Assembly: GCA_947503935.1 (NCBI GenBank)
Contig: CANNFR010000012.1
Span: forward strand, 1 to 64,000
DNA from: an uncultured Paracoccaceae bacterium
Lineage (GTDB): Bacteria; Pseudomonadota; Alphaproteobacteria; Rhodobacterales; Rhodobacteraceae
Reading direction: 5' to 3'
Length of the DNA stretch: 64,000 nucleotides
The translations under genes were made by a program, and so were the position numbers. Shown here one piece after another: positions 13,825 through 31,081 of the stretch. The first letter of the stretch is position 1; each line of letters begins with the position of its first letter. Below the pieces are notes generated by a model. It was given only the letters and a program-made list of their open reading frames with translations. It had not been told where the DNA came from and did not search any database.

Positions 13825-15039
13825 TTATGCCGCGACCCTCAGGCCAAGCGTGTCGATCAGTGTCGGGATCTTCTCCTTGAAGCGGAAAAAGCCGTGGGTG
13901 GCGTGGGGCCAGGCGGCCGCGTCATAGGGTCTGAGGGTGCGGTACAGCGCGACGCCCTCATCAGCCAGCAGACGCGCGGCCTCTGTGGCCTGCGTCGCGG
14001 CGGGGCCGACCGGTGCGTAGGGCATCACCACCTGGGTGAGGCCGGCCTCCTTCGCCCAGGCCACGATTTCGGCCGCGTTGGTGGCGGGCTCTGACAATGC
14101 GCCCAGCCTGTCGCCCAAACGCCGGCCCATATCGGCGGCGGCTCCCAGGGTGAAAGCCTCAACCATCGGAGCGATCTTCAGAGGCGATCGGCCAGTGTGG
14201 CCAAGAAGCGCGGCCGTTGCCTGTGGCTGCACTCCGGCCTCCAGCAGGAAATCGGGGGAAAGATCGTCCTCAGTAATCAAGAGGCCCGTGGCAGGGCTGG
14301 TCTGCCAGCTGTCCGAGCTTGGCGGTGCCAGGCGCGGCGGTGTCGGCCCCGCCGGTAGGGGCGGCGCGGTTTCCGCCAGACCCGTGGGCTGCACCCGACC
14401 TTCGGTATACCGCGCGATATTGTCGGGGCGGGCAAGATAGGTTTTGCCAACCGTTTGCAGACCCCCAACCCAGCGCCAGCCCAGCGTGTTTGAGGCCGGA
14501 TCACCATCCAGCAGATGGCGCAGGAAGAAATCGGCGCCCAGTTCCCAAGGCAATTCCAGCGTGAAAATCCAGATCGAAGCGAACCACATCCGCGCGTGAT
14601 TGTGCAGATATCCGGTCTCGATCAATTCATGTGCCCAGCCGTCGAACCCCTCGATGCCGGTCTCGCCGCGGCAGGCGGCCTCCCACCCGCGGCGAAGGCC
14701 GGATTCGGTCTGGACCCGGTTCAGGACGCCGTTCAGATCCCTCAGATAGTCGGACCAGACCGAGGGCCGCATCTCAAGCCAGCCCTTCCAGTAGGTCCGC
14801 CAGAACACTTCTTGCACGAATTTCTCGGCCTCACGCAGAGGTGTTCGGCCCAGAACGGCGGCCAGAACCTCGGCTTCGGTGATCAGACGGTGCCGGAGAT
14901 AGGGCGACAGGCCCGAGACGTGGGGGTGCCCGGGAAGGTCGAAATTGCGCAATCGGGCATAGTTTTGCCCAGCTTTCGGCAGAAAGGCATGCAATTTGCG
15001 CAGGGCGGTATCGCGGGATGGCGGGGGAATCGTTTGCAT
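13825..15039 (-). CDS. Photolyase/cryptochrome-like FAD protein with swapped domain order
   Basis: The N-terminal 215 residues carry the helical FAD domain of the photolyase/cryptochrome family: SGLSPYLR (about 42-49), HNHARMWFAS (146-155), DGDPASN (178-184) and GWRWVGG. There is no photolyase alpha/beta domain in front of it; only about 40 residues precede the motif. Instead, after a Pro-rich linker (about 217-250), a C-terminal alpha/beta region starts LLITEDDLSP and ends HATHGFFRFKEKIP, resembling the start and end of the usual N-terminal domain. The DAAPYFRIFNP-type segment normal in photolyases is replaced by GLQTVGKTYLARPDN. Function (repair, light sensing or redox) is unknown. The start is the ATG at 15039; an in-frame TTG lies three codons upstream. 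Confidence 0.75.
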   Translation of the reverse strand: MQTIPPPSRDTALRKLHAFLPKAGQNYARLRNFDLPGHPHVSGLSPYLRHRLITEAEVLAAVLGRTPLREAEKFVQEVFWRTYWKGWLEMRPSVWSDYLRDLNGVLNRVQTESGLRRGWEAACRGETGIEGFDGWAHELIETGYLHNHARMWFASIWIFTLELPWELGADFFLRHLLDGDPASNTLGWRWVGGLQTVGKTYLARPDNIARYTEGRVQPTGLAETAPPLPAGPTPPRLAPPSSDSWQTSPATGLLITEDDLSPDFLLEAGVQPQATAALLGHTGRSPLKIAPMVEAFTLGAAADMGRRLGDRLGALSEPATNAAEIVAWAKEAGLTQVVMPYAPVGPAATQATEAARLLADEGVALYRTLRPYDAAAWPHATHGFFRFKEKIPTLIDTLGLRVAA

Positions 15040-15186
15040 GTTCGGCAATTATGGCGTGTGGGTCTTGCGTCAATATGGCCGGTCGGCTTCTTTTTCTCCC
15101 TCCCTTGCAGCCCCGGAAGCGCGACACTAAGACTTACGCAAGGTTTAGCGGTTTAGACATACCCCGAACGGTTTGAGGCAGCGGAC

Positions 15187-15819
15187 ATGAGAGACCCAAT
15201 CGACACCTACATGAACACGCTTGTCCCCATGGTGGTTGAGCAAACGTCGCGTGGCGAACGCGCATATGACATCTTTTCGCGCCTTCTGAAGGAGCGGATC
15301 ATCTTTCTATCGGGCCCTGTGCATGATGGCATGTCCAGCCTGATCGTGGCGCAACTTCTGTTCCTCGAATCGGAAAACCCGACCAAGGAAATCTCGATGT
15401 ATATCAACAGCCCAGGCGGCGTCGTGACGTCGGGCCTGTCGATCTACGACACGATGCAATACATCAAGCCCAAGATTTCGACCCTTGTGGTGGGCCAGGC
15501 GGCCTCGATGGGCTCGCTTTTGCTGACGGCGGGTGAAAAGGGTATGCGCCTGTCGCTGCCCAATGCCCGGATCATGGTCCACCAGCCCTCGGGCGGATAT
15601 CAGGGCCAGGCGACCGACATCATGATCCATGCGCGCGAGACGGAAAACCTCAAGCGGCGTTTGAACGAGATCTATGTGAAGCATACCGGCCAAAAGCTGG
15701 AAAAGGTGGAAGAGGCGCTGGAGCGTGATAACTTCATGACCGCCGAGATGGCGAAAGATTGGGGTTTGATCGACGAAATCGTCGAAAGCCGCCCGAAAGG
15801 CGCTGAGGATGACAAGTAA
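15187..15819 (+). CDS. clpP: ATP-dependent Clp protease proteolytic subunit
   Basis: Serine peptidase that forms the 14-mer chamber of ClpXP and ClpAP. The catalytic serine is in [10 protein letters not shown], the histidine in IMVHQPSGG, and the aspartate lies further on near the region [18 protein letters not shown]. Length 210 residues fits alphaproteobacterial ClpP, including a short N-terminal propeptide. It lies 106 bases upstream of clpX on the same strand, the usual order, so the two are probably co-expressed for regulated proteolysis such as cell-cycle control. Confidence 0.96.
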
Positions 15820-15925
15820 CGCCGCGTATGATGTGGCATTTTTGACGTTGTGCAGGGCGGGGGGCTGGCCTAGACTTGTCCCCCAGCGGGCCCATGCAGG
15901 CGCGGGCAACCGCAGAGGGTAGGCG

Positions 15926-17191
15926 ATGGCGAACAATTCCAGCAACGACAGCAAAAACACACTCTACTGCTCGTTCTGTGGCAAAAGCCAACACGAGGTG
16001 CGCAAGCTGATCGCGGGCCCGACCGTGTTCATCTGCGACGAATGCGTCGAGCTGTGTATGGACATCATCCGCGAGGAGACGAAGGCCTCGGGGCTGAAAT
16101 CCGCCGATGGCGTGCCGACGCCGCAGGACATCTGCAAGGTGCTGGACGATTACGTGATCGGCCAGATGCATGCAAAGCGCGTCCTGTCCGTTGCGGTGCA
16201 CAACCATTACAAGCGCCTGAACCATGCCGGGAAGTCGTCGGATATAGAGCTGGCGAAATCGAACATCCTGCTGATCGGTCCGACGGGCTGCGGCAAGACG
16301 TTGCTGGCGCAGACGCTGGCGCGCATTCTGGACGTGCCGTTTACCATGGCCGATGCGACCACGCTGACCGAGGCGGGTTATGTGGGCGAGGATGTCGAGA
16401 ACATCATCCTGAAGCTGCTGCAAGCCTCTGAATACAACGTCGAACGCGCGCAGCGCGGCATCGTCTATATCGATGAGGTCGACAAGATCACGCGCAAATC
16501 CGACAACCCGTCGATCACACGGGACGTGTCGGGCGAGGGCGTGCAACAGGCGCTTTTGAAGATCATGGAGGGCACCGTCGCCTCCGTTCCGCCCCAGGGT
16601 GGCCGCAAGCATCCGCAGCAGGAATTCCTGCAGGTGGACACGACGAACATTCTTTTCATCTGCGGTGGGGCCTTTGCGGGCCTCGAAAAGATCATCTCGC
16701 AGCGCGGCAAGGGCAGCGCGATGGGCTTTGGCGCCGATGTGAAGGACAGCGAAGCACAAGGCGTGGGCGAGGCGTTCAAGACGCTTGAACCCGAAGATCT
16801 GCTGAAATTCGGCCTGATCCCGGAATTCGTCGGCCGCCTGCCGGTGATCGCAACACTGGAAGACCTCGACGAAGACGCGCTTGTGACGATTTTGAGCGAA
16901 CCGAAGAACGCCCTGGTCAAGCAATACCAGCGCCTGTTCGAGATCGAAGGCGTGGACCTGACATTCACCGATGACGCGCTGAAGTCGATCGCACGCCGCG
17001 CGATTGAGCGGAAAACCGGGGCCCGTGGCCTCCGCTCGATCATGGAAGATATCCTGCTGGACACCATGTTCGAGTTGCCCGGCCTGCGCAGTGTCGAAGA
17101 GGTCGTGGTGAACGAAGAGGCCGTGACAGCCAATGCCAAGCCGCTTCTGATCTACGCCGAAGGCAAGAAAGAGCCGGCAAGCGCGGGCTGA
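15926..17191 (+). CDS. clpX: ATP-dependent Clp protease unfoldase ClpX
   Basis: AAA+ unfoldase that feeds substrates to ClpP. The N-terminal zinc finger is complete, with cysteines in [10 protein letters not shown] and CDECVELC. Walker A is GPTGCGKT, the pore loop is GYVGEDVEN, Walker B is [10 protein letters not shown], and the ClpP-docking IGF-type loop is represented by [10 protein letters not shown] and nearby residues. Length 421 residues is normal. It follows clpP and is followed after 3 bases by the RidA-like gene, which has a TTG start. Antisense reading frames over this gene are shadows. Confidence 0.96.
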
Positions 17192-25237: not shown

Positions 25238-26560
25238 ATGGCGCTTGACCGCAAACCTGCACCGAACGACCTGAACGCCTTCTGGATGCCGTTTACGGCC
25301 AATCGGCAGTTCAAGAAGGCGCCCCGCATGCTGGTGGCGGCGCAGGACATGCATTTCACCAATTCCCAGGGCCGCCAGATTCTGGATGGCACGGCCGGCC
25401 TCTGGTGCTGCAATGCGGGCCATTGCCGCCCGAAGATCACGGAAGCGATCCAGGTTCAGGCGGCCGAACTGGATTATGCGCCCGCCTTCCAGATGGGCCA
25501 CCCCAAGGCGTTCGAGCTGGCCAACGCACTGGTCGGCATGGCGCCTGAGGGCATGGACCACGCGTTTTTCTGCAATTCGGGCAGCGAGGCGGTGGAAACC
25601 GCGCTGAAGATCGCGCTGGCCTATCACCGGGTCCGAGGCGAGGGGGCGCGCACCCGTCTGATCGGGCGCGAGAGGGGCTATCACGGGGTGAATTTCGGCG
25701 GCATCTCGGTGGGCGGGATCGTCAACAACCGCAAGTTCTTCGGTACTCTCTTGGCAGGGGTCGACCATCTGCCGCACACGCATCTGCCGCAGAACCAATG
25801 GGTCAAGGGCCAGCCCGAACACGGCGCCGAACTGGCCGATGAGTTGGAGCGCATCGTGGCCCTTCACGGCCCCGAGACCATCGCGGCTGTGATCGTTGAA
25901 CCCGTCGCAGGCTCGACCGGGGTGATCTTGCCGCCAAAGGGCTATCTTCAGCGGCTGCGCGCGATCACGCAAAAGCACGGCATCTTGCTGATCTTCGATG
26001 AGGTGATCACCGGGTTCGGGCGCCTCGGCGCGCCGTTCGCGGCGGATTATTTCGGCGTCATGCCTGACATGATCACCTGCGCCAAAGGTCTGACCAACGG
26101 TGTGATCCCGATGGGCGCCGTGCTGACCTCGGGCGCGATCCACGATGCCTTCATGACCGGGCCCGAACATGTGATCGAGCTCTTCCACGGCTATACCTAT
26201 TCGGGATCACCCATCGCCGCCGCCGCCGGGCTGGCAACGCTTGAGACCTATCGCGAAGAGGGGCTGTTTGAGCGCGCAGCCGACATCGCGCCCTACTGGC
26301 AAGAGGCACTGCATTCGCTGCGGGACCTGCCGCATGTCATCGACATCCGCAATATGGGCCTGATCGGTGCGGTCGAACTGGACCCCATCGCGGGCGAGCC
26401 CACCAAACGCGCGTTCGAGGCGTTTCTGGCGGCCTATGACAAGGGCATCCTGATCCGTACGACCGGGGACATCATCGCGATGAGCCCGCCGCTGATCATC
26501 GAGAAGACCCATATAGACGAGCTGATCGGGACTTTGCGCGACGTGCTGAAAGCGGCCTGA
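25238..26560 (+). CDS. Omega-amino acid:pyruvate aminotransferase (beta-alanine type)
   Basis: PLP-dependent class III aminotransferase, here probably converting beta-alanine (and 3-aminoisobutyrate) from pyrimidine breakdown to malonate semialdehyde. The N-terminus NDLNAFWMPFTANRQFKKAP matches omega-amino acid:pyruvate transaminases. SGSEAVETALKIALAYHR, the cofactor-binding DEVITGFGRLG and the Schiff-base lysine in TCAKGLTNG are intact. 440 residues. Start ATG 25238 is set by homology; the longer open frame is upstream DNA containing the RutR site. The gene context (RutR operator, dihydropyrimidinase, amidohydrolase) supports the beta-alanine assignment over taurine or other amines. Confidence 0.88.
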   Translation: MALDRKPAPNDLNAFWMPFTANRQFKKAPRMLVAAQDMHFTNSQGRQILDGTAGLWCCNAGHCRPKITEAIQVQAAELDYAPAFQMGHPKAFELANALVGMAPEGMDHAFFCNSGSEAVETALKIALAYHRVRGEGARTRLIGRERGYHGVNFGGISVGGIVNNRKFFGTLLAGVDHLPHTHLPQNQWVKGQPEHGAELADELERIVALHGPETIAAVIVEPVAGSTGVILPPKGYLQRLRAITQKHGILLIFDEVITGFGRLGAPFAADYFGVMPDMITCAKGLTNGVIPMGAVLTSGAIHDAFMTGPEHVIELFHGYTYSGSPIAAAAGLATLETYREEGLFERAADIAPYWQEALHSLRDLPHVIDIRNMGLIGAVELDPIAGEPTKRAFEAFLAAYDKGILIRTTGDIIAMSPPLIIEKTHIDELIGTLRDVLKAA

Positions 26561-26736
26561 AGGCAGGCTGGCCTTTCGGTCACGTTCTCCAAAAATGCAG
26601 TGTCACGCTGGCATCTCGGCGATCTGATGCCAAAAGGATGGGCGTCTTTCCTCCGTTGAATCGCCGATGGGTGGCGCGGCCCGAGTTTTCCGTTGACGCC
26701 GCCATCTGCCTGTGATCGCGTCGATCGGACTGAAAG

Positions 26737-27066
26737 ATGAGCATTTCGGGGACAATGGAATTGATGGCGCGTGCGCAAGCGGTGGCAACACTGTTGATTG
26801 ACGATGGGCGGGTGCGGACCACCCGGTTTGATTTCGCCCCTGGTGCCGAAACGGGATGGCATCTGCACGCCCATGATTATGTCATTGTCGCCCTGACCGA
26901 TTGTCTGATGCGCCTGGACGAGCCCGGCGGCACCAGCCGCGATGTGACGGTGCCCGTGGGCAATGCTTATCGCCGCGATGCGGGCGTCGAACACAACGTC
27001 ATAAATGCCGGCACCACAGCCATGGCCTTTATAGAAGTGGAACTGAAGGAAAGCCCTGTCGCATGA
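26737..27066 (+). CDS. Cupin-domain protein
   Basis: Single-domain cupin of 109 residues. The first metal motif is recognisable as ETGWHLHAHDYVIVAL, with histidines HLHAHD, and the second half has GNAYRRDAGVEHNVIN with a histidine and asparagine. The metal-binding site therefore looks usable. The stop overlaps the start of the next gene in ATGA. Such small cupins can be isomerases, dioxygenase-like enzymes or sensors; nothing decides between these. It sits inside the pyrimidine block, 176 bases after the aminotransferase, so a role on a pathway intermediate is possible. Confidence 0.75.
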   Translation: MSISGTMELMARAQAVATLLIDDGRVRTTRFDFAPGAETGWHLHAHDYVIVALTDCLMRLDEPGGTSRDVTVPVGNAYRRDAGVEHNVINAGTTAMAFIEVELKESPVA

Positions 27067-27971
27067 CACTGGACACCGCAAATGCCCCGCTTGTTCTGAC
27101 CGAGACCCTGACAAGCGCGCCCTTCAACTTCATCGTCGCGATCCGTCACCCCGAGACGGTGATCAGCCTGCATGAGCAACAGACCGCTCTGGCCGATCTG
27201 TTCCGCTCGATCGACGCCCAGACCGACCGGCGTTTCGCCGTCTATGTGGCGTGCAACCCCGAACAGATCCTGCCCGAACACGGGCCTTACGTGCACCGCG
27301 TGAATGTCGACATTCCGCCCAACACGCAGATGGCCAAGGCCAAGACGCTGGAGGAACTGTACGAGCTTTTCCGCAATGACAAGGGAAGCCGTGTGGCCGC
27401 CGCCTTGGATGTGATCGACCGCGATGCCTATGTGATGATCGTCGATGACGACGATTTCGTCAGTTCTCGGATCGTGGAATTCGTGCTGTCGCAGCAGGGA
27501 GAGCGGACTGGTTGGCTGGTGGATAAGGGCTATTCCTGGACCACCGGCTCGGGTGCTCTCTACGAGGTTGACGGGTTTCACAGGCTCTGCGGTACCAGTG
27601 TGGTCGCGCCTGCGCGCTACTACAAATACGTGCGTAAACAGGGCAGTACCCGCGATGGCATTCAGGAATTGGGCGGCCACCGAGCCGTGGTCGACAATGC
27701 CCGCCGCAACAAGCTGACCTTTCAGCCCCTGCCATTCCGTGGCGCCATCTACCGGCTGGGCCACAGCAATGCCTCGCAGGCCGATGTGCAGCGCCTGACG
27801 GCCAATGGCAAAGGCCCGAAGAAACCCACCCTTGTGGAACGCGGCATCGGCAAGGTCAGCCGGGCGCTTACGGGTGCGACGGTTGAAGAGGGGCCGAAGA
27901 TCAGGATCGATCACCCCATTGAAATCGAGACCGATTTGATGCGAGAGTTTTTCGGACGAAAGGCCACATAG
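27063..27971 (+). CDS. GT-A-like glycosyltransferase family protein
   Basis: 302-residue cytosolic protein with the outline of a GT-A nucleotide-sugar transferase: FNFIVAIRHPETVIS at the N-terminus, a first strand-helix FAVYVACNPEQ, and the metal-binding-type acidic motif YVMIVDDDDFVSS near residue 125. It resembles the putative rhamnosyltransferase-type proteins of Rhodobacteraceae, but that link is weak by eye. Starts in an ATGA overlap with the cupin gene and ends 18 bases before the amidohydrolase gene, so it lies within the same transcript. Why a glycosyltransferase should be among pyrimidine genes is unclear. Confidence 0.6.
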   Translation: MTLDTANAPLVLTETLTSAPFNFIVAIRHPETVISLHEQQTALADLFRSIDAQTDRRFAVYVACNPEQILPEHGPYVHRVNVDIPPNTQMAKAKTLEELYELFRNDKGSRVAAALDVIDRDAYVMIVDDDDFVSSRIVEFVLSQQGERTGWLVDKGYSWTTGSGALYEVDGFHRLCGTSVVAPARYYKYVRKQGSTRDGIQELGGHRAVVDNARRNKLTFQPLPFRGAIYRLGHSNASQADVQRLTANGKGPKKPTLVERGIGKVSRALTGATVEEGPKIRIDHPIEIETDLMREFFGRKAT

Positions 27972-27989
27972 CACCCAGAAGGAGCCCCC

Positions 27990-29240
27990 ATGGCAGCGCC
28001 CGGCGAGAACCTCAAGATCAACGGCCAGCGGTTATGGGACAGTCTGATGGAAATGGCCAAGATCGGCCCGGGCGTCGCGGGCGGCAACAATCGTCAGACC
28101 CTGACCGATGCCGATGCCGAGGGGCGCGCGCTGTTCCAGACATGGTGCGAGGAAGCCGGCTGCACCATGGGCGTCGACCAGATGGGCACCATGTTCGCCC
28201 GGCGCGAGGGCACTGACCCCGACGCGCTGCCGGTCTACGTGGGCAGCCACCTCGACACGCAACCCACCGGCGGCAAGTATGACGGCGTGCTGGGGGTGCT
28301 TGGGGGGCTCGAGATCCTCCGCACGCTGAATGACCTCGACATCAAGACGAAGCATCCCATCGTCGTGGTCAACTGGACCAATGAAGAGGGCACCCGCTTT
28401 GCCCCCGCCATGCTGGCCTCGGGCGTCTTCGCCGGGCGGCATGATTTGCAATGGGCCTATGACCGCAAGGATGCCGAGGGCAAGACCTTCGGCGATGAGC
28501 TCAAGCGCATCGGCTGGGTCGGGGACGAAAAGGTCGGCGACCGCAAGATGCACGCTTTCTTCGAGCTCCACATCGAACAGGGCCCGATTTTGGAGGCCGA
28601 GGGCAAGGATATCGGCGTCGTCACGCACGGCCAGGGCCTCCGCTGGATCGAATGCACCGTGACGGGGAAGGAGAGCCACACTGGTTCAACGCCCATGCAC
28701 ATGCGCAAGAATGCAGGCCGTGGGCTGGCACTGGTCACCGAGCTGGTCCACGAGATCGCGATGAAGAACCAGCCGAACGCCGTCGGCGCCATCGGCCATA
28801 TCGACGTCTACCCCAACAGCCGCAACATCATCCCCGGCCGCGTCGTCTTCACCATCGACATGCGCACCCATATTCTGCCCAAGCTGAACGCGATGGTGGA
28901 CGAATTGATGGAGCGTGCGCCCAAGCTCTGCGACGATATCGGCGTGGGTTTCGAGGCCCAGATCGTCGGCCAGTTCGACCCGCCCGCCTTCGACGAGGGC
29001 TGCGTGAAAGCCGTCCGCGACGCCGCCGAGCGGCTGGGCTATTCTCACATCGACATCGTCTCAGGCGCCGGCCACGACGCCTGCTGGATCAACGACGTCG
29101 CCCCCACCGCCATGGTCATGTGCCCCTGCGTCGACGGGTTGAGCCACAACGAGGCCGAGGAGATATCGCCGGAATGGGCTGCGGCCGGGGCGAACGTGCT
29201 GTTCCACGCGGTGGTGGAGACGGCGGAGGTGGTGGGGTGA
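27990..29240 (+). CDS. Zn-dependent amidohydrolase, N-carbamoyl-beta-alanine/ureidopropionase type
   Basis: M20-family metal hydrolase that removes the carbamoyl group of N-carbamoyl-beta-alanine (third step of reductive pyrimidine breakdown), yielding beta-alanine, CO2 and ammonia. Metal-site segments are present: VGSHLDTQPTGGKYDG, the acidic pair in NWTNEEGTRFAPAM, the histidine in FFELHIEQGP and the C-terminal SGAGHDACWI. 416 residues, the usual length of the amidase/hydantoinase-carbamoylase family. A GGAG ribosome site precedes the ATG. Substrate is inferred from the neighbouring dihydropyrimidinase; an allantoate or N-carbamoyl-amino-acid substrate cannot be excluded from sequence alone. 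Confidence 0.9.
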   Translation: MAAPGENLKINGQRLWDSLMEMAKIGPGVAGGNNRQTLTDADAEGRALFQTWCEEAGCTMGVDQMGTMFARREGTDPDALPVYVGSHLDTQPTGGKYDGVLGVLGGLEILRTLNDLDIKTKHPIVVVNWTNEEGTRFAPAMLASGVFAGRHDLQWAYDRKDAEGKTFGDELKRIGWVGDEKVGDRKMHAFFELHIEQGPILEAEGKDIGVVTHGQGLRWIECTVTGKESHTGSTPMHMRKNAGRGLALVTELVHEIAMKNQPNAVGAIGHIDVYPNSRNIIPGRVVFTIDMRTHILPKLNAMVDELMERAPKLCDDIGVGFEAQIVGQFDPPAFDEGCVKAVRDAAERLGYSHIDIVSGAGHDACWINDVAPTAMVMCPCVDGLSHNEAEEISPEWAAAGANVLFHAVVETAEVVG

Positions 29241-29608
29241 GGGTCATACTCCTAGCGAGTGTATACATTGGATTTTTAGGGCCTGCGTTAAGCAGTGACG
29301 CGGAGGCACAAGAACCTCTCAAGGGGATTGGGGTGGCAGAATGTCAGACCGTGCTAGACCTCCGCGAGAACGCTACTTTGCACCAGGCTCTATCTAGTTG
29401 GGTTTATGGATTTTTCAGCGCGCTGAATTTCCAGAGCATGAACCAAAACTACACGATGCGGGACCTCTCAGGAGCATCTATGGAGCCTGACGCACTCGCA
29501 GAACGGATTGTTGGAAGATGCTATGACGATCCAAAAAGGACGGTTCTGGCGGTCGCCTTTGACGTATTTGATCAGCTACCGCTTGTTGACGTCTCCAACA
29601 ATCGCTAG
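29237..29608 (+). CDS. Small secreted protein, HdeA/Rap1a-like layout
   Basis: Starts at a GTG overlapping the amidohydrolase stop (GTGA). The first 22 residues form a signal peptide (VRVILLASVYIGFLGPALS, cleavage near AEA-QE). The mature 100 residues hold two cysteines, in GVAECQTVLD and VGRCYDDP, around WVYGFFSALNFQ, the general spacing of HdeA/Rap1a-type small periplasmic proteins with one disulfide. The family is not firmly recognised. Base composition is clearly lower in GC than the flanking enzymes, suggesting separate acquisition. Role in the pyrimidine block unknown. Confidence 0.6.
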   Translation: MRVILLASVYIGFLGPALSSDAEAQEPLKGIGVAECQTVLDLRENATLHQALSSWVYGFFSALNFQSMNQNYTMRDLSGASMEPDALAERIVGRCYDDPKRTVLAVAFDVFDQLPLVDVSNNR

Positions 29609-29629
29609 CTCCGAGGATAGGAAGCGCAC

Positions 29630-31081
29630 ATGACAACACTCATCAAAAACGGCACCATCGTCACCGCCGATCTGACCTACAACGCGGATGTCCTAATCGA
29701 GGGCGGCAAGATCACTCAGATCGGCCCGAACCTCAAAGGCGACGAGACGCTCGACGCCACCGGCTGCTACGTCATGCCGGGGGGGATTGACCCGCATACC
29801 CACCTCGAGATGCCGTTCATGGGCACCTATTCCTCGGACGACTTCGAAAGCGGCACCCGTGCCGCCCTCAGCGGCGGCACCACGATGGTGGTCGACTTCG
29901 CGCTGCCCTCGCCCGATCAGGGCCTGCTCGACGCGCTTCAGATGTGGGACAACAAGTCGGGGCGCGCCAATTGCGACTATTCCTACCACATGGCGATCAC
30001 CTGGTGGGGCGAGAAGGTCTTTGATGACATGAAGGATGTGGTGGGCCGGGGCATCACCACGTTCAAGCATTTCATGGCCTACAAGGGCGCGCTGATGGTG
30101 AACGATGATGAGATGTTCGCCAGTTTCCAGCGCTGTGGTGAGCTTGGCGCGATCCCGCTGGTCCATGCCGAGAACGGCGATATCGTGGCCGATTTGCAGG
30201 CCAAGCTTCTGGCCGAAGGCAATAATGGCCCCGAGGCACATGCCTATTCCCGGCCCCCCCAGGTCGAGGGAGAGGCCACGAACCGCGCCATCATGATCGC
30301 CGATATGGCGGGCGTGCCGCTTTATGTGGTCCACACCTCGTGCGAAGAGGCGCACGAAGCGATCCGGCGGGCCCGGATGCAAGGCAAGCGGGTCTGGGGC
30401 GAGCCCCTGATCCAGCACCTGACGCTGGACGAAAGCGAATACGCCCATCCCGATTGGGACCATGCCGCCCGCCGGGTGATGAGCCCACCCTTCCGCAACA
30501 AGCAGCATCAGGACAGCTTATGGGCCGGGCTGCAATCGGGCTCGCTCTCGGTGGTGGCGACCGACCATTGCGCCTTCACGACCGAGCAGAAGCGGTATGG
30601 TGTGGGCGATTTCACCAAGATCCCGAACGGGACCGGGGGTCTCGAAGACCGGATGCCGATGCTCTGGACCTACGGCGTGGGCACCGGGCGCCTGACGCCG
30701 AATGAGTTTGTGGCGGTCACCAGTACCAACATCGCCAAGATCCTGAATTGCTACCCGAAGAAGGGCGCGGTTCTGGTGGGAGCGGACGCCGACCTCGTTG
30801 TCTGGGACCCTGAGAAGGAGAAGACGATTCAAGCCAAGACCCAGCAATCGGCCATCGATTACAACGTCTTCGAGGGCAAGAAGGTGAAAGGCCTGCCGCG
30901 CTTCACCCTGACCCGTGGCCATGTCGCCATCCATGACGGCGAGGTGCGCACGAAGGAGGGCCACGGCGAATTCGTGGCGCGCGAGCCGATGGGCGCGACG
31001 AACAAGGCGCTCTCGACCTGGAAGGAGTTGACCGCACCGCGTAAGGTGGAACGGTCGGGGATACCGGCGAGCGGTGTTTGA
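29630..31081 (+). CDS. hydA: Dihydropyrimidinase (D-hydantoinase family)
   Basis: Opens the ring of dihydrouracil or dihydrothymine to the N-carbamoyl-beta-amino acid, second step of reductive pyrimidine breakdown. Binuclear metal site: GGIDPHTHLEMPFMG, the carbamylated lysine in TTFKHFMAYKGALM, the histidines of LVHAENGD and VVHTSCEEA, and the aspartate in VVATDHCAF. 483 residues, standard. Lies 21 bases after the small secreted protein gene. The final codons (ERSGIPASGV) are copied further downstream as part of a tandem duplication. Confidence 0.94.
   Translation: MTTLIKNGTIVTADLTYNADVLIEGGKITQIGPNLKGDETLDATGCYVMPGGIDPHTHLEMPFMGTYSSDDFESGTRAALSGGTTMVVDFALPSPDQGLLDALQMWDNKSGRANCDYSYHMAITWWGEKVFDDMKDVVGRGITTFKHFMAYKGALMVNDDEMFASFQRCGELGAIPLVHAENGDIVADLQAKLLAEGNNGPEAHAYSRPPQVEGEATNRAIMIADMAGVPLYVVHTSCEEAHEAIRRARMQGKRVWGEPLIQHLTLDESEYAHPDWDHAARRVMSPPFRNKQHQDSLWAGLQSGSLSVVATDHCAFTTEQKRYGVGDFTKIPNGTGGLEDRMPMLWTYGVGTGRLTPNEFVAVTSTNIAKILNCYPKKGAVLVGADADLVVWDPEKEKTIQAKTQQSAIDYNVFEGKKVKGLPRFTLTRGHVAIHDGEVRTKEGHGEFVAREPMGATNKALSTWKELTAPRKVERSGIPASGV
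31043..31081 (+). repeat. Direct repeat a1: 3' end of dihydropyrimidinase gene
   Basis: 39 bases, beginning AAGGTGGAACGG and ending GGTGTTTGA, that match 31853-31891 at 32 of 39 positions, in the same frame. It marks the left edge of the first duplicated unit. Confidence 0.8.

Follow-up and report, generated by a model that had tools for sequence, protein, structure and literature searches.

The gene examined here raises the question of how a protein with the motifs of a photolyase FAD domain came to carry its domains in reverse order, and what it does in the cell. It lies in a 64,000-nucleotide stretch of DNA from an uncultured Paracoccaceae bacterium (contig CANNFR010000012.1), hereafter the window. 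The reversed arrangement has already been described as the NewPHL family, of which the window gene is a typical representative. NewPHL (Phr7) proteins are presented, in the passages of PMC13274461, PMC8948257, PMC12083526 and PMC9426592 that cite the original work (Emmerich et al. 2020, NAR gkaa1147), as FAD-first photolyases with a C-terminal 'Z-domain' and as single-strand-specific CPD photolyases. We assign a probability of about 0.9 to the reading that the window ORF encodes such a protein, with the FAD domain first and a shortened antenna-type Z-domain last, most likely serving the light-dependent repair of CPDs in single-stranded DNA. Since this class is already published, the gene alone changes little; the by-product of its analysis is evidence on how the domain order of photolyases was reversed.

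The features of the gene are given in Table 1; an alternative TTG start at 15048 extends this minus-strand ORF to 13825-15048 (407 aa). In 404-aa numbering, the motifs named in the original prediction are found at residues 45-49 (SPYLR), 146-151 (HNHARM), 178-184 (DGDPASN), 187-190 (GWRW) and 379-392 (HATHGFFRFKEKIP), so its observation that the FAD motifs come first, with about 40 residues ahead of them, holds. The Pfam scan placed PF03441 at residues 77-202 of the 407-aa form (E 2.5e-20) and found no other family in the protein up to E 10. With PF00875 absent from the Pfam results and so short a stretch before the FAD motifs, the protein lacks the N-terminal antenna domain of class I/III photolyases. 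Photolyase and cryptochrome models of NCBIfam matched only far under their cut-offs and were confined to residues 9-210; the score with the cryptochrome DASH model TIGR02765, 61.2 bits, falls short of its cut-off of 317.05. A sequence search of the PDB up to E 1 gave photolyase and cryptochrome matches confined to residues 7-223, and none up to that value that spanned the whole protein.

Table 1. Features of the inverted photolyase gene in the window, and one interrupted photolyase locus from another genome (last line, with its own numbering)
Feature	Position	Strand	Basis
Probable NewPHL-type inverted photolyase gene	13825..15039	minus	404 aa from ATG
N-terminal FAD-binding catalytic domain, residues 1-229	14353..15039	minus	PF03441 and VIA match to 1iqr
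Linker, residues 230-250	14290..14352	minus	No helix or strand in the model
C-terminal Z-domain, residues 251-397, alpha/beta, probably of photolyase-antenna type	13849..14289	minus	Fold, VIA and Foldseek matches, bridge profiles
E77-W80, active-site residues	14800..14811	minus	Aligned with class I/III photolyases
HNHARM, residues 146-151 (class I/III counterpart HNRxRM)	14587..14604	minus	Alignment
DGDPASNTLGWRW, residues 178-190, containing N184, W188 and W190	14470..14508	minus	Alignment
HATHGFFRFKEKIP, residues 379-392, final part of the Z-domain	13864..13905	minus	Alignment, fold, VIA
L189 (G296), interrupted ordinary-order photolyase	1649-2899 of reverse complement	minus	One in-frame stop between antenna and FAD halves

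The predicted fold agrees with a two-domain protein. In the full-length AlphaFold model (mean pLDDT 94.3, pTM 0.91, 21 sequences), residues 9-211 are all-helical, and residues 251-397 form strands and helices, which matches the C-terminal alpha/beta region of about 150 residues expected from the sequence. Residues 1-229 were matched by VIA to 1iqr (Z 16.3, rmsd 2.5, 210 residues aligned), with model residues 1-226 placed on chain residues 171-411; Foldseek likewise matched the first 229 residues to photolyase FAD domains. When the C-terminal 162 residues were folded alone (pLDDT 95.5, pTM 0.88, 45 sequences), the first chains to be matched were those of photolyases and cryptochromes, as would be expected of an antenna domain moved to the C-terminus. 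The best VIA match was 8ijy (Z 10.4, rmsd 4.2, 145 residues aligned, chain residues 2-163), followed by 1np7 (Z 10.2) and 6kii (Z 10.1). The segment HATHGFFRFKEKIP had been likened to the end of the canonical N-terminal domain, and the placement of the last helix agrees with this in part: 10 of the 34 photolyase/cryptochrome rows put the whole model on chain residues up to about 207, but 21 end at chain residues 263-307, past the N-terminal domain, and 3 stop at model residues 127-135.

The FAD-first order is beyond chance and widespread in bacteria. We aligned 99 rows, comprising the window protein, 20 whole-genome homologues and 78 of 80 genome-contig homologues (L061 and L070 were excluded for an in-frame stop); the rows include near-duplicates, and L006 and L049 are probably one record. 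In all 99, over 100 aligned residues lie C-terminal to the FAD domain, and at least 98 rows agree at each of E77, W80, N147, H148, M151, W165, D178, N184, W188 and W190. Among 101 genomes (its own and relatives), 20 hold 21 homologues that span nearly the whole query; the number of genomes rises to 22 when G068, with a shorter match to a 385-aa protein whose C-terminal region is alignable, and G030, with a C-terminal piece at a contig end, are counted. The genome-contig scan gave at least 597 pattern matches, and 592 of those listed were relatives; the best 80 of these at least 592 relatives were kept, and by their record titles they span Alphaproteobacteria, Gammaproteobacteria and Actinobacteria (e.g., Curtobacterium and Frigoribacterium). 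Seven plasmid records match at least 80% of the query, six of them annotated as 'FAD-binding domain-containing protein' and one with no feature there; in viral contigs, 17 pattern matches included no relative.

Two further kinds of FAD-first relatives were identified. Fused photolyases with an intermediate C-terminal domain are encoded on plasmids of Deinococcus (L152, L187, L225) and Persicobacter (L188, L226); the three Deinococcus proteins carry C-terminal Fe-S-type cysteines. Split FAD-first gene pairs occur in Deinococcus sp. QL22 (L186) and in ten alphaproteobacterial genomes (L195-L204, of which L202, L195 and L200 also bear the handles L022, L024 and L025). Such a split pair, phr4/phr5, is already known in marine Synechococcus (PMC9426592; PMC3441193), and PMC3441193 suggests a heterodimer. 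As given in PMC9426592, Phr4/Phr5 and Phr6 of marine Synechococcus and Cyanobium resemble the window protein in the reversed order of their FAD and photolyase domains and are nearest to Phr7 in the tree; they differ in having four Fe-S cysteines and a recognised photolyase domain, in being encoded by two genes in most strains, and in the authors' prediction of a (6-4) photolyase.

The catalytic residues were compared among 31 NewPHL rows (the window and 30 chosen loci). E77, W80, N147, M151 and N184 are present in all 31 and W190 in 30, and they are common to class I/III photolyases; E77 and W80 presumably correspond to E274 and W277 of E. coli numbering. The replacement of the PYFRxFNP segment had been taken as a hint that the chemistry may differ, a suggestion that finds no support given this conservation and the replacement of the same segment in relatives of the short photolyase (SPL) and fused types. 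HNH stands in all 31 NewPHL and all 16 split or fused rows, and HNR in all 18 class I/III rows. Class I/III CPD photolyases thus share the FAD fold (1iqr, Z 16.3) and active-site residues with the window protein and differ in their N-terminal antenna, distal Trp, HNRxRM motif and PYFRxFNP segment. W165 and W188 are kept in 31/31 NewPHL rows; at N107 and A122 of the window protein, where class I has Trp, NewPHL has other residues, and the distal Trp is absent, in agreement with the 'mere Trp dyad' that PMC8948257 mentions for the NewPHL of D. shibae. The window protein has a single cysteine, C123, and none at the Fe-S columns, hence no four-cysteine Fe-S site. One of the four Fe-S columns is Cys in 19 of the 31 NewPHL rows and the remaining columns in fewer than a quarter; four Fe-S-type cysteines are present in 7 of the 16 split or fused rows. 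PMC13274461 lists NewPHLs for four species, and the characterised members are A8LJA9 of D. shibae and M7YZC8 of M. mesophilicum. As compared by published descriptions, the window protein shares with NewPHL an N-terminal FAD and a C-terminal alpha/beta domain in one chain, occurrence in Alphaproteobacteria, the Trp dyad, the conserved Asn near FAD and the lack of an Fe-S site, and no difference was found.

In the proposed mechanism, reduced FAD would absorb blue or near-UV light, pass an electron to the flipped-out dimer and recover it after the ring splits; the FAD itself would be reduced through a two-Trp chain of W188 and W165. The Z-domain would probably cap the FAD site rather than harvest light, as has reportedly been proposed for the family. 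For the window protein, the CPD substrate, the single-strand preference and the role of the Z-domain are all presumed by analogy with the characterised members.

A join of two gene fragments by sequencing or assembly error, raised by the original prediction as a way in which it could be wrong, has practically no probability, because the 99 aligned rows all share this order and 20 of the 101 genomes contain full-length homologues that share it too. A signalling cryptochrome, with the same fold and light chemistry, would report blue light and repair no DNA; both cryptochromes and photolyases use Trp electron donors in a FAD domain, and the window genome already holds a canonical photolyase and one of the PF04244 (Fe-S) type. 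We regard this function as highly improbable: the CPD-photolyase active-site residues that were checked are kept in 30-31 of the 31 NewPHL rows, few residues lie beyond the Z-domain of the window protein, and two relatives are published repair enzymes.

A better-placed but still unlikely alternative concerns the Z-domain, which might be an unrelated HUP-fold domain, e.g., of the universal stress protein (USP) type, fused independently behind a FAD-only photolyase, in which case no domain has moved. The best USP for the domain folded alone, 2pfs, reached Z 9.5 (rmsd 4.1, 111 residues aligned), within 1 of the best photolyase, and VIA rows within 1 Z unit count as tied, so the fold alone does not tell these families apart. 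Photolyases and cryptochromes nevertheless make up 34 of the 50 VIA rows listed, 31 with 145-157 aligned residues and 3 with 112-118, against 106-131 in the USP rows, and this longer aligned stretch in the predicted model favours an antenna domain over a USP. The same trend is seen in Foldseek, where rows 1-8 are all photolyases or cryptochromes (E 5.4e-4 to 1.2e-3) and row 9 is Cam1 (E 1.5e-3), which we take to be a CARF-type protein. By sequence, a direct hhalign comparison of the Z-domain profile (98 of the 99 rows) with 34 canonical N-terminal domains fails (probability 3.9, score 21.5), as an unrelated domain would predict, so that homology of the Z-domain and the antenna by sequence needs the split and fused proteins as a bridge. 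Against an unrelated domain, the 16 split and fused C-terminal domains match both the canonical N-terminal domains (probability 95-96, score 53; best of 60 column shuffles 23.0, reversed 15.4) and the Z-domains (probability 92, score 45; best of 60 shuffles 15.6, reversed 12.6), with co-linear alignments of about 129 columns. These C-terminal domains also match PF00875 below its cut-off: L152 at 7.2e-4 and L187 at 1e-3 (the two of the five fused proteins that the scan covered), and the L186 partner at 2.3e-4. Among the seven other split partners (8 of 11 were scanned in all), three match PF00875 at 0.013, 0.10 and 0.15, another family ranking higher in the partner at 0.10, and four of the eight scanned have no match up to E 1, which favours the unrelated domain. 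From both sequence and fold, we infer that the Z-domain is a diverged antenna domain. A Pfam scan of 45 Z-domains (of 92 candidate rows) gave scattered weak matches, including one to PF00875 (0.057) and one to BLH_phosphatase (7.3e-5), and the Z-domain profile gave nothing below 0.03 against PDB sequences.

The split pairs bear on the SPLs, which are described as lacking an alpha/beta domain (Xu et al. 2021, MBE msab191, as reported in passages of PMC9178010, PMC9649867 and PMC9498864) and which some authors place at the root of the whole cryptochrome/photolyase family as single-domain ancestors. The window protein, with its C-terminal alpha/beta domain, is no SPL; its FAD domain is related, and the SPL-like and fused rows carry HNHxRM (16/16) and the Y201 position (16/16), as NewPHL does. 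An SPL-like query matched 41 of 385 alphaproteobacterial genomes at E 1e-22 or better, with FAD-only matches weaker than that outside the count. Ten matches are FAD-only genes from six families (three from one genus and two from another), assigned to the published SPL class by architecture; the other 31 are open frames of at least 381 aa. Downstream of every one of the ten lies an antenna-like ORF of 131-155 aa; its start codon begins 1 or 5 bases ahead of the stop codon of the FAD gene in nine cases and 17 bases after it in one. The Deinococcus QL22 pair (offset -1) brings the FAD-only genes with a downstream antenna ORF to 11 of 11, ten of them overlapping, a count that leaves out the short FAD frames of G095 (two stretches, running to contig ends) and G022. 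The annotation of QL22 calls its antenna-domain ORF a hypothetical protein. Upstream of L195 and L197 there are long open frames, which by eye do not resemble an antenna domain. As a control, ORFs of at least 100 aa start at the partner position behind 15 of 79 NewPHL and 9 of 33 canonical genes. The partner profile was built with the 11 partners, so that their own scores on it are no test; among the control ORFs it matched only those of L096 (2e-7) and L093 (2e-6), both behind NewPHL. These were rejected as partners, being 511 and 512 aa long and beginning like ordinary photolyases (NIVWFKRD). Also rejected was G296 (L189) as a partnerless SPL: its 260-aa FAD frame (29% identity) directly follows a 156-aa antenna-like frame in the same reading frame, one stop between them, and belongs to an ordinary-order photolyase that has been interrupted.

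The 11 of 11 downstream antenna genes, from six alphaproteobacterial families and one Deinococcus plasmid, together with the profile bridge, suggest that an SPL is half of a two-gene enzyme and not a single-domain ancestor. In the scenario to which we lean slightly, the SPL supplies the FAD subunit of a reversed-order photolyase, and the overlapping or abutting downstream gene supplies the antenna subunit; the order was reversed once, and the Phr6, Deinococcus and Persicobacter proteins arose by fusion, as did NewPHL, in its case with Fe-S loss and antenna decay. If so, the SPL enzyme would consist of two domains made as separate chains, and the single-domain-ancestor model would be weakened; should the partner rule hold more widely, trees rooted on the SPL as a one-domain ancestor would need re-examination, and any purification and assay of the SPL ought to include its partner. 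We found no report tying SPLs in general to a partner gene in a limited literature search that did not include the original SPL paper.

The FAD-domain tree of 76 rows included 18 of 21 named canonical loci and 11 of 13 PF04244 rows (L245 and L246 being without the motif). The 31 NewPHL rows, including the window, form one clade of the same architecture (support 100/99). The free tree pairs NewPHL with class I (82/85, not starred) and not with the split and fused types, which speaks against the preferred reading. When NewPHL, split and fused types were constrained together, a tree 16.7 log units better was obtained, one that had escaped the free search (p-AU 0.73); a single origin of the three is thus allowed by these sequences, not proved; the very long branches of the class I and PF04244 rows (2.7 and 4.1) limit this tree. 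The circular permutation or domain swap of the original prediction is right in that the domain order is reversed; as regards a strict circular permutation, the split intermediates point instead to gene fission and fusion. Sequence and fold together suggest that the reversed order arose via a split or fused FAD-first gene pair.

Beside the window gene lie divergent clpP and clpX (15187-17191). Near NewPHL genes, clpP was found in at least 27 and clpX in at least 28 of 81 loci, both counts being lower bounds from crude ORF picking that recovered the NewPHL gene itself in 71 of 81; this suggests conserved synteny, not function. NewPHL reportedly replaces DASH; among the 101 relatives, the DASH cut-off was reached in none, whether NewPHL was present or absent, and it was reached in 1 of 14 control genomes. 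Close to NewPHL, 8 of the 81 loci (L064, L068, L079, L085, L093, L096, L105 and L108) contain an ORF of about 520 aa that resembles a canonical photolyase; in L093 and L096 its start codon begins one base ahead of the NewPHL stop codon. The canonical and PF04244 photolyases of the window genome (G000) are located at C5:85821-87068 and C11:25258-25914. In G007, a PF04244 photolyase, a NewPHL gene and a fragment matching PF00875 share 5 kb of contig C41 (about 25958-30614).
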